A stretch of 64,000 bases of DNA from Candidatus Melainabacteria bacterium (GTDB lineage: Bacteria; Cyanobacteriota; Vampirovibrionia; Obscuribacterales; Obscuribacteraceae): assembly GCA_013288645.1 (NCBI GenBank), contig JABDBL010000005.1:1-64000 (forward strand), given 5' to 3'. A model generated the notes under the pieces. That model had not been told where the DNA came from and did not search any database. It saw only the letters and a program-made list of their open reading frames with translations. This document shows, piece after piece, positions 13,876-53,859 of this stretch (position 1 is the stretch's first letter; each line of letters opens with the position of its first letter). Both the position numbers and the translations under genes were made by a program.

Positions 13876-13884
13876 ATAATATTT

Positions 13885-13919
13885 AACCAATAAGTTAGAT
13901 ATATTCTAACATACTGGTT
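13885..13919. promoter_or_regulatory. Operator-like palindrome 1 for abiE
   Basis: AACCAATAAGTTAGA and TCTAACATACTGGTT form an inverted repeat (13 of 15 positions) separated by 5 bases, directly upstream of the abiEi start. Confidence 0.75.
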
Positions 13920-13937
13920 AAATATTTAGTAAATTCT

Positions 13938-46990: not shown

Positions 46991-47150
46991 AGACAGTGGG
47001 ACCCTATAAACGAAGAGATCAACTAAAAGGTTTTGGCTGTCTATCAAAGTTTAATTTATCAATTCTTTGTAGCCGTGTTATAATTCCACCCTCAAGCTGG
47101 TTCTGGCATCATCTTATGTATAATTAGTCTTTCAACATAGAGGATTGCTT

Positions 47151-48698
47151 ATGTCCAATATATTTATTGAAAATGCGGACTTTCAGAGAACTCGCAATTC
47201 CAGCTTGTCACCTTTACTATCGTTGTTTCCTGGATTGGGACAGCTATACAATGGGCAAGCGCGCAAGGGGCTTTTATTCATAGCTATTGCCATAAGCTAT
47301 CTTTTTGTATTTTTGATTATTGGTTTAAATCAGAGCATTATGGATGGGCTTTCTAGTTTTGGACAGTCAGTTCATATGAAACCTGACTCTCACTTGGTTT
47401 CGGCTTTGTATGAATTGCGCTTAGGGTCAGCATTATCTTTTATAGTTTTTGCGCTGTACATATCTTTTGTTATTTATGCGATGCGTGACGCTCAGCATCA
47501 AGCTACTTTGCTACAGCGCAAACTTATTTATGCTGATTGTGTTCTAGAGATGAATGAGGCAACAAGTGGTTCTTATTTATTGCATATTGTTTCGATTTCA
47601 CTTCTATTTGTTCTGGCCGTTTTCTTCTTTAAACACGCTCCTGCACCGATCCAAATTACAAATATTGAATTTGTGCAAAGTCAATTGCCAACTAAAAAAG
47701 TGATTGTATCGAAGTACAGGTCTACTACGAAGTCTGAGGCTTCTGGCATCCATAAGCCATTGCCTGTATTGGCGGCATCCAGTGCTAAAGGTGTTAAGAA
47801 TGTGCCTAAGGTATTACGAGAGTCTTCAAACAATAATTCTGCCTTGCCGCAATTTAAACCACATTTGACTCACAGCACTACTACATTGCCCAGTCTACCG
47901 CAGCAAAGAGCGATGATAAGTCCGGTTTTGCCGGTGCCGCATAATGTCGATAGGCATATTTCTACAGCACCACCAGCCATGCCGAAAGTGTCGAGTAGCC
48001 AAATTGATTTACCAAAACCTATTGGTGCTGATAGAAGTAAATTGGTCAATAGTTTTGTGCCGCCCGGTTTGAATAGTAATGTGGCGACGAATAGTAAGAA
48101 TCTAATTGCCGGCGTGCCAGGGCCGACTAGTGTTATTTCTGGTGATAAATTTGTGCCTGTTCCGTCCAGTACTTCCAGCGGTGAACCATCTGTACGGAGT
48201 TCTAATACCAGCGCCCCGATTGGACCTAGTAGAGCAAATACTATGGCAGGGATACCGGGAATAAGAGGACCTGTGGTTCGTCCCGTAATTCCGGGCTTTG
48301 GTGAGCCGAGTGCGACGACCGCGGAACATACAATTGGAAATCCTATTGATAAAGCAATTAACAAAGGTCCTATTTCAATTTCTTCATTACCGGTTGATTT
48401 TGCAGCTTATATGGGTGATCTGCAACGCCGTATTAAGCGTAGTTGGTTTCCTCCCAAAGATACAGAATCTAAAAGGATAGAAGTAGTTTTTAAAATTCAT
48501 AAAGGTGGAGAACTAACCGACTTGCGAATTCTTAAATCATGTGGTTTTGCTTCAGCTGATGAAGCCGCTCTAAGAGCAATACAGAATGCAGCACCTTTTC
48601 GTCAATTACCGCTGGGTGCACCTGAAAATATAGATATTCAATTTACTTTTGACTATAGTGTTTTTAGCGGTAGCAAAAATTTATTCAAACAATATTGA
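47151..48698 (+). CDS. TM2-like / TonB C-terminal fusion protein
   Basis: 515 residues. The N-terminal part has a TM2-like segment (LFPGLGQLYNGQARKGLLFI) and further membrane helices to about residue 165. A long Pro/Ser-rich spacer follows. The C-terminal TonB domain (about 410-510) reads YMGDLQRRIKRSWFPP with ADEAALRAIQNAAPF. The span-spacer-domain layout is that of energy transducers to the outer membrane. AGAGG 7 bases upstream supports the ATG at 47151. ExbB/ExbD are not in the window. Confidence 0.85.
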   Translation: MSNIFIENADFQRTRNSSLSPLLSLFPGLGQLYNGQARKGLLFIAIAISYLFVFLIIGLNQSIMDGLSSFGQSVHMKPDSHLVSALYELRLGSALSFIVFALYISFVIYAMRDAQHQATLLQRKLIYADCVLEMNEATSGSYLLHIVSISLLFVLAVFFFKHAPAPIQITNIEFVQSQLPTKKVIVSKYRSTTKSEASGIHKPLPVLAASSAKGVKNVPKVLRESSNNNSALPQFKPHLTHSTTTLPSLPQQRAMISPVLPVPHNVDRHISTAPPAMPKVSSSQIDLPKPIGADRSKLVNSFVPPGLNSNVATNSKNLIAGVPGPTSVISGDKFVPVPSSTSSGEPSVRSSNTSAPIGPSRANTMAGIPGIRGPVVRPVIPGFGEPSATTAEHTIGNPIDKAINKGPISISSLPVDFAAYMGDLQRRIKRSWFPPKDTESKRIEVVFKIHKGGELTDLRILKSCGFASADEAALRAIQNAAPFRQLPLGAPENIDIQFTFDYSVFSGSKNLFKQY

Positions 48699-48748
48699 GC
48701 TGTTTTGATAATTCATTTGGGGTCTATAGGTCTAGTAAGGAGAGCTGT

Positions 48749-49192
48749 ATGTTTGGACAGAAGCCAAAGGTCTTTTTGTTTCATTTACTAATAAGCTTTA
48801 TGTTTGTTTTTTCATTCTCTGGTTTTGGTATCCTTGCAAAAGCAGATGAGAAAAAAGATGGTCCAGTCTCTAGTGACGTTGATTTTGGTCCGTATATGGG
48901 GGAGTTGCAACGAAAAATTATGCGGAATTGGCATCCTGCCAAAAGTACTTTGTCTAAAAAAGCAGTAGTGAGCTTTGAGGTAAAATCTAACGGTTCTCTA
49001 GAACACGTCTTTCTTTTTAAATCGTCGGGTGTCGCATCTAGGGATCGAGCTGCTTTGTGCGCCATACAAAAACTGGATTCTGTGGACCCCCTTCCACCAG
49101 GTGCAATAGAGAAGATCAAAATTCACTACCAATTTGATTCTTGTGATTTTGACGGTCGACCAAGCGCTGTTATGATTGGTGGCAGTACTTAA
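48749..49192 (+). CDS. Secreted TonB C-terminal domain protein
   Basis: 147 residues. A signal peptide or anchor (1-33) is followed directly by a TonB C-terminal domain (YMGELQRKIMRNWHPAK, then RDRAALCAIQKLD) clearly related to that of the upstream gene. It lacks the proline-rich spacer. AAGGAG lies 7 bases before the ATG at 48749. A duplicated, spacer-less transducer or periplasmic partner. Confidence 0.82.
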   Translation: MFGQKPKVFLFHLLISFMFVFSFSGFGILAKADEKKDGPVSSDVDFGPYMGELQRKIMRNWHPAKSTLSKKAVVSFEVKSNGSLEHVFLFKSSGVASRDRAALCAIQKLDSVDPLPPGAIEKIKIHYQFDSCDFDGRPSAVMIGGST

Positions 49193-49723
49193 TCTATTTA
49201 TTGGCTACAGGAAATAGAATCTTGTGTTTAAGAAAGCCTTTGTTATAGTAAGCATTTTTTGTATGTTTACTTTAGCTATATTCGCTAAGCATTCACATAC
49301 CTGTAGCCATATTGCAGCTGGTTGAGAAAAACAGTGTGACCGGCACTCTATGTCGATCGGTAGGTATGTCCATTCATGTTAAGCGAAAAACGCAGGTTTT
49401 GAACTTTTTCTAAAGGCTTAAGCAGCAAAGCTTTGGTAGGATCAAAAAGTCTGGAAACCTTGATGTAATATAACTTCATGACAATTGCTGAATTTGGCAT
49501 CTCCATTTTTTTAAACAGAGGGGTCTCTATTAATAAAATTTCTTTCTGCCAATATAAACAAACAACACCAACTCAAAATTCGGCAGCAAATGGGCTTTGA
49601 AATAATTTTGGCTGAATAGTAATTATAGGTATGAAGCATTCAATAATACAGGATAAATTTTTAGTTTATAGAAATTCTCGAACGATTTCAGTTTAATGTG
49701 TCCGATTTTCTTTCGCTAATACA

Positions 49724-49801
49724 GCTTGAGCTTTGGTATCGTATACGATACCAAAGCTCAAGCCCCCCTGCCGGTTCACTCACCGGGCCCAGAGGGGCTT
49801 G
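49724..49801. repeat. Perfect 40-bp palindrome overlapping a second GC-rich hairpin
   Basis: GCTTGAGCTTTGGTATCGTA is followed at once by its exact reverse complement (49724-49763). The last bases of that arm also pair as CAAGCCCC with GGGGCTTG at 49794-49801, enclosing an inner CCGGT/ACCGG stem, so two structures compete. The GC-rich second part contrasts with its AT-rich surroundings. Confidence 0.85.
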
Positions 49802-50143
49802 CTCCTGTACTTAAAACCTACTTACAATGATCACCAAAACTGCTGAAATACTTTTGCTGAAGCAATATAACTATATCGGGTAGTGAATATCCCGCTTAAA
49901 TTTAGCTTTGCATTCCCTGGCAGTTCTTGATTTCAATTATAACAAAATTGTTGATCACGGCAAGTACTTTAATCTTAAATTCCTAAAAATGTTTTGATTC
50001 TAATCTGAGAATCTTGAGTATATAAATTAAGCTCTGAGCAGAAACTAATAATGATAAATTGAGCTCAAGCTCATCCATTCATGGTCTCTGCTTATTGAAA
50101 TCGAGAATATTAATGTTCTAGACTTATGAAATTAACTGATAAT

Positions 50144-50175
50144 TATACATGCTACTGTATATGGTGGCATGTATA
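50144..50175. repeat. Inverted repeat just after the GGDEF gene
   Basis: TATACATGC and GCATGTATA are exact inverted copies 14 bases apart, immediately past the stop codon of the minus-strand GGDEF gene. The stem is AT-rich and no T-run follows, so it is at best a weak terminator. Confidence 0.5.
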
Positions 50176-50178
50176 AAA

Positions 50179-53100
50179 TTAGACCTGGGCCACACTAATT
50201 GGTTTATCGATTAGGGCAAGGAATATTTTTACTAATTCTGGATCATAATCTTTGCCCGACTTTTCTTGAATTAATTTTATTGCTTCCTCTTGTTTTATTG
50301 CTGGTCTATAGGGACGATTGCTAGTCATAGCAACAAAATCATCGACTAAAGAAATTATTCTTGATTCAAGTGGAATATCTTTTCCCCTTATTCCGTGAGG
50401 GTAACCTGTACCGTCCCAATTCTCTTGATAAGACCCGATTATTGGTGCTAAATGAGAAATAAGTTTAGCTGTTTCTAGAAGACGAGCACCAGCAGAAGGA
50501 TAACTTTTAACTATTTCCATTTCCTGAGGAGTTAATGGACCCTTTTTGCTCAATATTTCTTTGGGCAGCATTAATTTACCTAAATTGCTATAAACTGCGG
50601 CTAAGGCAATTACTTCAGTGCGATCTTCTGGTAATTCTAGGTTACGGGCCAATTGGCGGGTGTAATTGTAAACCCTTTGTGTCCGTACTGGTTCATAGGT
50701 GTCCAATTCTTCAATGGTCTTAATAATTAAGGATAATAATCCTAATAAACCACGTTGAGCAATTAAGCTTAAATCTAAGGCGCCATTATTTTGAGTGGGA
50801 CTTAGATCGGGGTTAGGCACTGGCATCGAACCGGGCAGCGATATCGAACCAGAAAGAGTCATCATTGTTGATATTGTTTGTGCAGGAATGTTTTGTTTGG
50901 ATTGTTGACGAATAGGTGTGGTGGGAATTAACGGCAATTCTTCTGCGCTTAGGCTGGGAATTAAGTCTTCCGAAACTGAACATACCTGATTTCGTCCTCT
51001 GTCTTTAGCTAAAAAGAGAGCATGGTCTGCCAATTCAAATAATTTATTGCTGTCCATAGCATCATTGGGGAAAGTAGCCAATCCCAGCGAGGCAGTTATT
51101 GTTCCTATATCTTTTACAGGATTTTCGGCAATAGCAAAGCAAATTCTATCGGCTACTAAGCGTGCTTGGCGCAATTCTGTTTCGGGTAGCAGAACAACGA
51201 ATTCTTCTCCACCGAAACGTCCAACTGTATCTACATCCCGAACACTATATTTCATGACATTGGCAATGTGCTTAATGGCCGCATCCCCACTGCTATGACC
51301 ATAATTGTCATTTATTTTCTTGAGGAAATCTAAGTCAGCAATGATAAATGAGAATGGGTGGCCGAAACGCTGATAACGGTCAATTTCTTTTGTTAATTGA
51401 TCTTGAAAATAGCGACGGTTGAATAGACCGGTCATAGGATCGGTTATGGCTTGACGTTCTACCTGACTGAATAATTCGGCATGGGCAATTACAGCTGCTA
51501 CTCGGTTTGCTAAGTCGTCTACCATGTGCATGTCATTTTTGGGCAAAGAATGGATTTGTGTGTGATGCAATAAACAAAGAGCAGCCTTGAATTCACCACC
51601 GTAAAAAAGCGGGACCAAAGTCGCTCCTTTTATGCCTTCTAAGTTTTGATCTTTAATAAGGTGATCTAAATTGTGTTGCTCAAGAAAGACAGTATTGCCT
51701 TTTTTGAGTGCTTCTAAATGAAAAATAAAAAGTTGTAGCTCAAGATACTCAGGGCTTAATTTTTCCAAGGTATTGTCTTGATTTGGCAAATTTAAAGTCG
51801 GATTTGATTTAAATTTCGTGAATTGGTTAGTTGTGTGATCATAAAGTGAAACCAGACAGCGACTTAAACCAAAATGCTCCTTAAGCGAAGTAACTAAAGT
51901 GGCCATAATTTGGTCTACTTCTTTTAAAGATTGACGAATTTCGCTAGAAACTCGATTGATCAAATCGGCGCGAGCCTGGTCAGCTTTAATTTGCATTACA
52001 GCTGTTTCAGCTCGAATAACATTTGAAAGGTGACCAGCAATAGTCAATCCTAATTCGCGGTCTTGGGCTTTGAACTGCGTTTGTTTACTCTGTCTTTGCC
52101 ACAAACCTATAACACCTAGACGCTCGCCTTCTGAAATTAAAGGAAGGATTAAAGCTGTGTCGTGCTTAAAATAAGGATCGGACTTACGAGATTCCTCCAT
52201 ATTGATAACTTTCCCCGGACCTGATTTGAAAACAGAAACGAATGGGTTGTCGTTATCCGAAAGAGGAACATTGAGATTCTCTCCATTACTGATCTGAGGA
52301 ATTAGTTCATTTGATTCCGCATTATACAAATATAATTGAGCGCGAACGAAATTCATATGTTCTGCGACTAAAAGCACTGATTTTACTAAAGACTGCTCAT
52401 TGCTCTGTCCTCGCGATGCTCGGAAAAGGCTGGCAATGTCATTGATGAGCTTCATTTCTTTGGCGTCAACTTCGATTTTTGTTTGGTCATAAGACTGTTG
52501 AACAACAACAGAAAGCATTTCTGCAACAGCTTGAATCATAATGGCTTCGTCATTACTCCAGCTGCGCGTGGCGTTTGCTTGTTGTAATTCGAGGAAACCG
52601 AAGAAAACTCCGCGTGAACGAAGTTGGACCATAAGTCTTGCTTTAACCCCGCCCAATTCGATTAAGGAAGAAAGGGTAGGCGATATTTTGTGCAAATTGA
52701 CATCTGAGACAGTGTCATTAATACTAATCACTCCTGCTGCTGATTCATCAGGGAAGTGATTTACAAACTCAAGTACAAGCGCATTAGACTCATCTTGCCG
52801 CAATCGGTTGCTTATAAATTCCAAGTGTCCATTGGCTGCATATTCGTGCGTGACCATTAACTGGTCACCAACTACCTGCCAGATTAATCCTCTATCTGCC
52901 TTTATGGCCTGTGTCAATTTTTCGATAGCAAATTGTAATATTGCATTCAAATTGTGAGAGTGTCGTAAGCGACCAATTATTTCTGTAATAATCGATGCAG
53001 CTGTAATTGCCTGTTGAGGTAACTGATGGATTATTGGTTTTTGGATAATAGTTTCATCTGTTGCGGTTTGATTTTTTATTGAATGCGCTGCCTCGCCAGT

Positions 53101-53859
53101 AACTACTTTGGTATGCTCGGCAGTAGACCTTAACGGACTAAAATCCTGAGTTGACGGACTTAATGTCTTTTGTTTTGCTGAAATAATTTGATTAGTTTGG
53201 CTGATAGTGGATATATGCTGAACTTTTGTTTGGTTAGCTGTTAGTTTGGGTGCTACAAGTTGCTTTGCTTGCAAGATTTGTGGCGGAATGAAAACGCTTT
53301 GCATTGTCGGCGCTTTGATAATTGGCCACTTAGATCTAAGGCGTTGCGTAAGGGCAACAGAACTATCACCGTAGGTAATTCCTGTCCTTGCTTCCTCTAA
53401 GCGGTTACTTTCACTTGGGTCATCGAGCTGAAATTTAGGCAAAAGTTGGTTGAAAGATTGTTTGACCAATTCTGTGTCCATGGAGCCAGCACATTGGTAT
53501 CTGTTTCCATCGATGGGCTCCGGCGTGGCTTGACCATGCAGAACCAAGCTCAATTTATTACTTTCAATGAAAATGCACCATTCATCTGGGGCTTCCTGAT
53601 TGCCGTCAGAAAATACTGAAACACATTGGCATTCAGTTGCTAATTGTTTTAGGCGCGGTCCTTCGGGTAATAAAAGAGAGGCATTATGTTTTGCCCAATA
53701 TACTATGATCGGCGACAGTTTTTCATCAAGACAAACCTGTTCAACCGTTCTTATGAATGAGAGGAAGCTGGTAGGCGGCAATATGCTTAGCGGCAGGGTG
53801 CCAAAGCCCCCTTGTCGGACAAGCATCATCTGTAATTGTGTCAGGCCAACTTCGGCCAT
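50179..53859 (-). CDS. Multi-GAF diguanylate cyclase with degenerate HD-GYP domain
   Basis: 1226 residues, soluble. An N-terminal sensory region (about 1-150, possibly a DICT domain) and a disordered linker precede about three GAF domains (roughly 285-790). The GGDEF domain (about 820-985) keeps the active GGEEF and an RDVD inhibitory site, so c-di-GMP synthesis is likely. The C-terminal HD-GYP-like domain (about 1055-1220) has lost key metal ligands: YSNLGK replaces HDxGK and SYQENWDGTGYP replaces HHExxDGxGYP, so phosphodiesterase activity is unlikely. Confidence 0.9.
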   Translation of the reverse strand: MAEVGLTQLQMMLVRQGGFGTLPLSILPPTSFLSFIRTVEQVCLDEKLSPIIVYWAKHNASLLLPEGPRLKQLATECQCVSVFSDGNQEAPDEWCIFIESNKLSLVLHGQATPEPIDGNRYQCAGSMDTELVKQSFNQLLPKFQLDDPSESNRLEEARTGITYGDSSVALTQRLRSKWPIIKAPTMQSVFIPPQILQAKQLVAPKLTANQTKVQHISTISQTNQIISAKQKTLSPSTQDFSPLRSTAEHTKVVTGEAAHSIKNQTATDETIIQKPIIHQLPQQAITAASIITEIIGRLRHSHNLNAILQFAIEKLTQAIKADRGLIWQVVGDQLMVTHEYAANGHLEFISNRLRQDESNALVLEFVNHFPDESAAGVISINDTVSDVNLHKISPTLSSLIELGGVKARLMVQLRSRGVFFGFLELQQANATRSWSNDEAIMIQAVAEMLSVVVQQSYDQTKIEVDAKEMKLINDIASLFRASRGQSNEQSLVKSVLLVAEHMNFVRAQLYLYNAESNELIPQISNGENLNVPLSDNDNPFVSVFKSGPGKVINMEESRKSDPYFKHDTALILPLISEGERLGVIGLWQRQSKQTQFKAQDRELGLTIAGHLSNVIRAETAVMQIKADQARADLINRVSSEIRQSLKEVDQIMATLVTSLKEHFGLSRCLVSLYDHTTNQFTKFKSNPTLNLPNQDNTLEKLSPEYLELQLFIFHLEALKKGNTVFLEQHNLDHLIKDQNLEGIKGATLVPLFYGGEFKAALCLLHHTQIHSLPKNDMHMVDDLANRVAAVIAHAELFSQVERQAITDPMTGLFNRRYFQDQLTKEIDRYQRFGHPFSFIIADLDFLKKINDNYGHSSGDAAIKHIANVMKYSVRDVDTVGRFGGEEFVVLLPETELRQARLVADRICFAIAENPVKDIGTITASLGLATFPNDAMDSNKLFELADHALFLAKDRGRNQVCSVSEDLIPSLSAEELPLIPTTPIRQQSKQNIPAQTISTMMTLSGSISLPGSMPVPNPDLSPTQNNGALDLSLIAQRGLLGLLSLIIKTIEELDTYEPVRTQRVYNYTRQLARNLELPEDRTEVIALAAVYSNLGKLMLPKEILSKKGPLTPQEMEIVKSYPSAGARLLETAKLISHLAPIIGSYQENWDGTGYPHGIRGKDIPLESRIISLVDDFVAMTSNRPYRPAIKQEEAIKLIQEKSGKDYDPELVKIFLALIDKPISVAQV

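Follow-up and report, generated by a model that had tools for sequence, protein, structure and literature searches.

What is a perfect 40-bp palindrome doing between two genes of a Candidatus Melainabacteria bacterium? In the 64,000-nt stretch of DNA analysed here (the window), the palindrome (GCTTGAGCTTTGGTATCGTA|TACGATACCAAAGCTCAAGC) is exact at positions 49724-49763, with arms that are 100% complementary and a spacer of zero. No other perfect inverted repeat in the window has arms of at least 16 nt (within 100 nt), and about 64000 x 4^-20 = 6e-8 palindromes of 40 bp are expected there by chance. The surrounding gap (49193-50178) holds no plausible gene and is flanked convergently by a TonB-domain protein gene (48695-49192, plus strand) and a GAF/GGDEF/HD-GYP protein gene (50179-53859, minus strand). 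From the right arm of the palindrome, CAAGC runs on into CAAGCCCC...GGGGCTTG, which ends at 49801 and encloses CCGGT/ACCGG. The initial annotation was thus accurate in describing a loopless palindrome that overlaps a competing GC-rich hairpin in a gene desert of about 1 kb; as explanations it had offered a structured RNA, a MITE-like element or a protein-binding site. Folded as RNA, the palindrome/hairpin region is far more stable than shuffled sequences (z -6.1 for the plus strand and -6.9 for the minus strand). Elsewhere in the window there is a second long inverted repeat (13878-13926; arms of 22 nt, 91% complementary, loop of 5 nt), and two adjacent plus-strand genes (47145-49192) each encode a C-terminal TonB domain, possibly following a tandem duplication.

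When the 1-kb gap was compared at the DNA level with 60 related genomes, 26 gave matches, and the best matches mostly covered the same ~50 bases, namely the hairpin beside the palindrome and not the palindrome. This hairpin, P5 (49757-49805, minus strand), begins with GGAG (49802-49805) and consists of an outer stem (49790-49801 paired with 49759-49770) and an inner stem (49782-49786 paired with 49771-49775; CCGGU/ACCGG). The two strands of the outer stem change together among relatives, giving the variants CAAGCCCC/GGGGCTTG, CAGGTCCC/GGGACCTG, CAGACCCC/GGGGTCTG and CAAACCCC/GGGGTTTG. Across 22 distinct sequences, compensatory double changes occur at 7 of its 12 pairs and 99.5% of cells are paired, and none of 500 shuffles equalled its covariation score of 0.306. 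Cells that depart from Watson-Crick pairing on the minus strand comprise 12 G·U and no A·C; since the 12 G·U would be mismatches on the plus strand, this identifies the minus strand as that of the RNA. No variation occurs in the inner stem, in the leading GGAG or in most of the loop; such constancy exceeds what a terminator needs and suggests that the tip would be recognised by a protein or a target RNA. Downstream of P5 the relatives average 5.4 T in 10 bases. Such a U-rich tail is present in most of them, and P5 therefore probably serves most of the family as an intrinsic terminator as well; in the window's genus the tail is weak.

A covariance model of P5 (R1), which matches the window at 75.3 bits, hit 38 of 50 genomes of the family (Obscuribacterales) exactly once each, covering 20 of its 24 genera. 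The other 12 family genomes gave no match, and inspection of the corresponding regions in two of these (G024 and G015) revealed no RNA; a weak P5-like match in G015 was rejected because it lies in unrelated sequence on the opposite strand. There were no matches in three sister-family genomes, whose regions beside the gene are also empty, nor in 385 other genomes of the phylum in a shallow search that scored no more than 15 candidates per genome. Scanning 84,980 species genomes for the motif returned 30 stretches, each with a single match and most of them bearing the title Obscuribacterales or Melainabacteria, and viral contigs held no motif match. Public records with the titles Chloroflexi, Actinobacteria and Proteobacteria (L096, L106 and L110) also carry the RNA; these titles look wrong, because the matching genomes group within the Obscuribacterales family. 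Comparison with relatives, proposed in the initial annotation as a check, went against the palindrome as the conserved element, as it is confined to one genus, and in favour of the adjoining P5. What the initial annotation missed is that the conserved part of the locus is the GC-rich hairpin, and that this lies within a minus-strand transcription unit of ~200 nt.

The proposed unit begins at a promoter-like site (49936-49963, minus strand), made up of TTGCCG, 16 nt and a TG-extended TATAAT, and most of 24 relatives have the same pattern in the same place. Read 5′ to 3′ on the minus strand, the alignment of relatives shows CTTGNC, about 17 nt and an often TG-extended TATAAT, followed by an AGATCG-like start, AGCGGG...CCCCG (hairpin P2), GGAGCA and P5. 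The ncRNA would extend from about 49930, placed ~6-7 nt past the -10 box, to an estimated end at 49724. Its 5′ domain (49820-49935) is predicted to comprise a long-range stem, P1 (5′ strand about 49904-49935, 3′ strand about 49820-49859), that encloses P2 (49877-49894). In all 24 genomes the segment just past the start can pair with the segment 3′ of P2. When all 24 RNAs were folded to a consensus, P5 alone emerged; P1 was missed because its length varies and was consequently tested by strand swapping. P1 strands from the same genome pair at a mean of -20.3 kcal/mol, compared with -16.3 kcal/mol for strands swapped between genomes, a result matched in none of 100,000 permutations by a statistic that treats related genomes as independent. 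Comparison with shuffled 5′ strands gave a combined z of -8.0, a value that ignores relatedness and to which many single genomes contribute weakly. Base pairing is thus upheld by compensatory changes in both P5 and P1, as expected of a small-RNA gene. No ORF common to the relatives crosses the RNA, as expected of a noncoding one, and a small protein was ruled out on this ground.

The genes around the RNA bear on whether it is independent. In relatives, the GGDEF/HD-GYP gene usually lies a few hundred bases upstream of the P5 element on the same strand, which would suit a 3′ UTR structure that governs the end or stability of the GGDEF/HD-GYP mRNA. However, a conserved promoter separates this gene from the element, the gene is several kb away in four genomes (G006, G004, G025 and G030), and other genes take the upstream position in two more (G003 and G026). 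We therefore regard a 3′ UTR element as unlikely, although it may have such a role in some genomes. Downstream, the genes vary among relatives and are often convergent; with no fixed downstream gene on the same strand, a riboswitch or leader attenuator was ruled out. The promoter and the RNA stay together even in genomes in which the GGDEF/HD-GYP gene is remote or missing, which favours an independent RNA gene over a 3′ UTR or a riboswitch. Such a gene would presumably yield a free small RNA that acts in trans.

How does the palindrome relate to this RNA gene? Only the two species of the window's genus carry it (hereafter P6; minus strand) among the genomes compared. A P6-like hairpin is not a trait of the family, as short hairpins after P5 occur no more than sporadically in other genera. 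P6 has an identical position relative to P5 in both species, with fixed spacing, where most relatives have the U-tract of the P5 tail, and no good U-tract follows it. The palindrome of the sister species (G001) reads GCTTGAACGTTAGTACCGTATACGGTATTAACGTTCAAGC on the minus strand: four arm differences from the window are all matched in the other arm, one more produces a G·U, and the centre (CGTATACG) is identical. The suggestion that retention of such a long palindrome suggests function or recent origin was borne out in part on both counts, since P6 is confined to one genus and yet its pairing is kept in the sister species.

The same comparison weighs on what P6 could be other than an RNA hairpin. 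Perfect symmetry and the unchanged centre would be appropriate for a DNA site bound by a dimeric protein, but a DNA operator should keep its letters, whereas the outer arms change in matched pairs that fit a hairpin better. Furthermore, a single site was found, and in both species it directly adjoins a conserved RNA hairpin, with unchanged spacing, making the protein-binding site of the initial annotation improbable. A mobile repeat of the MITE or REP type would share the hairpin shape, the intergenic position and the restriction to one genus. However, a genome search (2.78 Mb, about 72% complete) found one copy, located beside a fixed single-copy feature of the family, and its place relative to P5 is the same in the sister species; we consider a mobile element highly improbable. 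Of the three original options, the structured RNA is the best supported.

The gap does contain a dispersed intergenic repeat of ~116 bp (ATATTACATCA...GCTTAACATGAA; window 49370-49487, minus orientation), which we count as unrelated to the P5/P6 RNA. Of 53 genomes of the order, 11 carry it, with one copy in the window genome, three in G001, four in G013, 20 in G010 and 31 in G066, lying between unrelated genes, and it showed no Rfam match and no conserved fold. The G010 copies are bounded by TGTAAC...GTTACA, and inspection by eye shows GTCTCTTT/AAAGAGAC farther outward; a repeat of MITE-like or regulatory nature is suggested by these ends.

A further alternative accepts the RNA and denies P6 a function: a small hairpin beside P5 would have been lengthened and kept perfect by replicative template switching. 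One study (PMC8794818) reports that template switching creates and maintains RNA hairpins, and such an origin would agree with the limitation of P6 to one genus and with the sporadic short hairpins near P5 in relatives. Yet, in a comparison limited to two species, most of the stem differences are compensatory pairs that lie apart from one another instead of forming a single cluster, and one is a G·U, a pair possible in the RNA strand only. We regard a functionless by-product as possible but doubtful.

Our preferred explanation, which we consider likely, is that the locus is a single-copy, lineage-specific ncRNA gene of ~200 nt on the minus strand, whose 3′ hairpin (P6) is the palindrome. The RNA would be read from its own sigma-70-type promoter, starting near 49930, and would consist of the 5′ domain (P1 closing P2), a variable linker, the invariant GGAG and P5. 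The family's usual U-rich tail would be replaced in the window's genus by P6, whose most probable role is to protect or define the 3′ end. Five bases (GCTTG, 49759-49763) are common to P6 and the base of P5, and the two stems would therefore compete. In the best predicted fold of the window, P5 retains most of its stem, while in that of G001, P6 captures the shared bases and the base of P5 opens; such folds make competition in the minus-strand RNA plausible. A possible short closing stem around both hairpins (49718-49723 paired with 49805-49810) appears in the predicted fold only. More speculatively, the RNA could have a two-state 3′ end, in which the invariant tip is read by a protein or target and the genus-specific hairpin exchanges strands with P5. 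The case for the RNA gene is drawn from sequence, namely conservation, pair covariation, the RNA strand, promoter and tail patterns, and single-copy distribution. If correct, it adds a conserved ncRNA gene absent from Rfam in non-photosynthetic relatives of cyanobacteria. The palindrome, with its two species, also provides a case in which to ask whether selection or template switching preserves long RNA hairpins. The literature searched contained no study of small RNAs or riboswitches in the Obscuribacterales lineage, and this family-restricted RNA appears to be previously undescribed.

Comparison with known RNA families gave no Rfam 15 match at gathering score for this RNA in the window or in 20 relatives; at a permissive threshold only microRNA models matched, on the bare palindrome and below cut-off. 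The tmRNA lies elsewhere in the window. The candidate resembles 6S RNA (RF00013) in length and single copy, but 6S RNA is one long hairpin with a central bubble, while the candidate has a 5′ domain and a 3′ hairpin, and no Rfam 6S match falls on it. A 6S candidate at another locus (G000:C3:13449-13684, L053; 38.9 bits, E 2.3e-6, below the Rfam cut-off) is possibly a divergent 6S RNA of this lineage. Bacterial small SRP RNA likewise has a GC-rich hairpin with an internal bulge, but the SRP RNA of this genome (RF00169) was found above cut-off at a different locus (G000:C10:8410-8495). Terminator-ended bacterial sRNAs share the promoter pattern, the length of ~200 nt, the intergenic position, the lack of an ORF and, in most relatives, the GC-rich 3′ hairpin with a U-rich tail. 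In contrast to these sRNAs, the candidate keeps the tip of its 3′ hairpin and the leading GGAG invariant beyond the needs of termination, and in the window's genus it carries a long palindromic hairpin in place of the U-tract.
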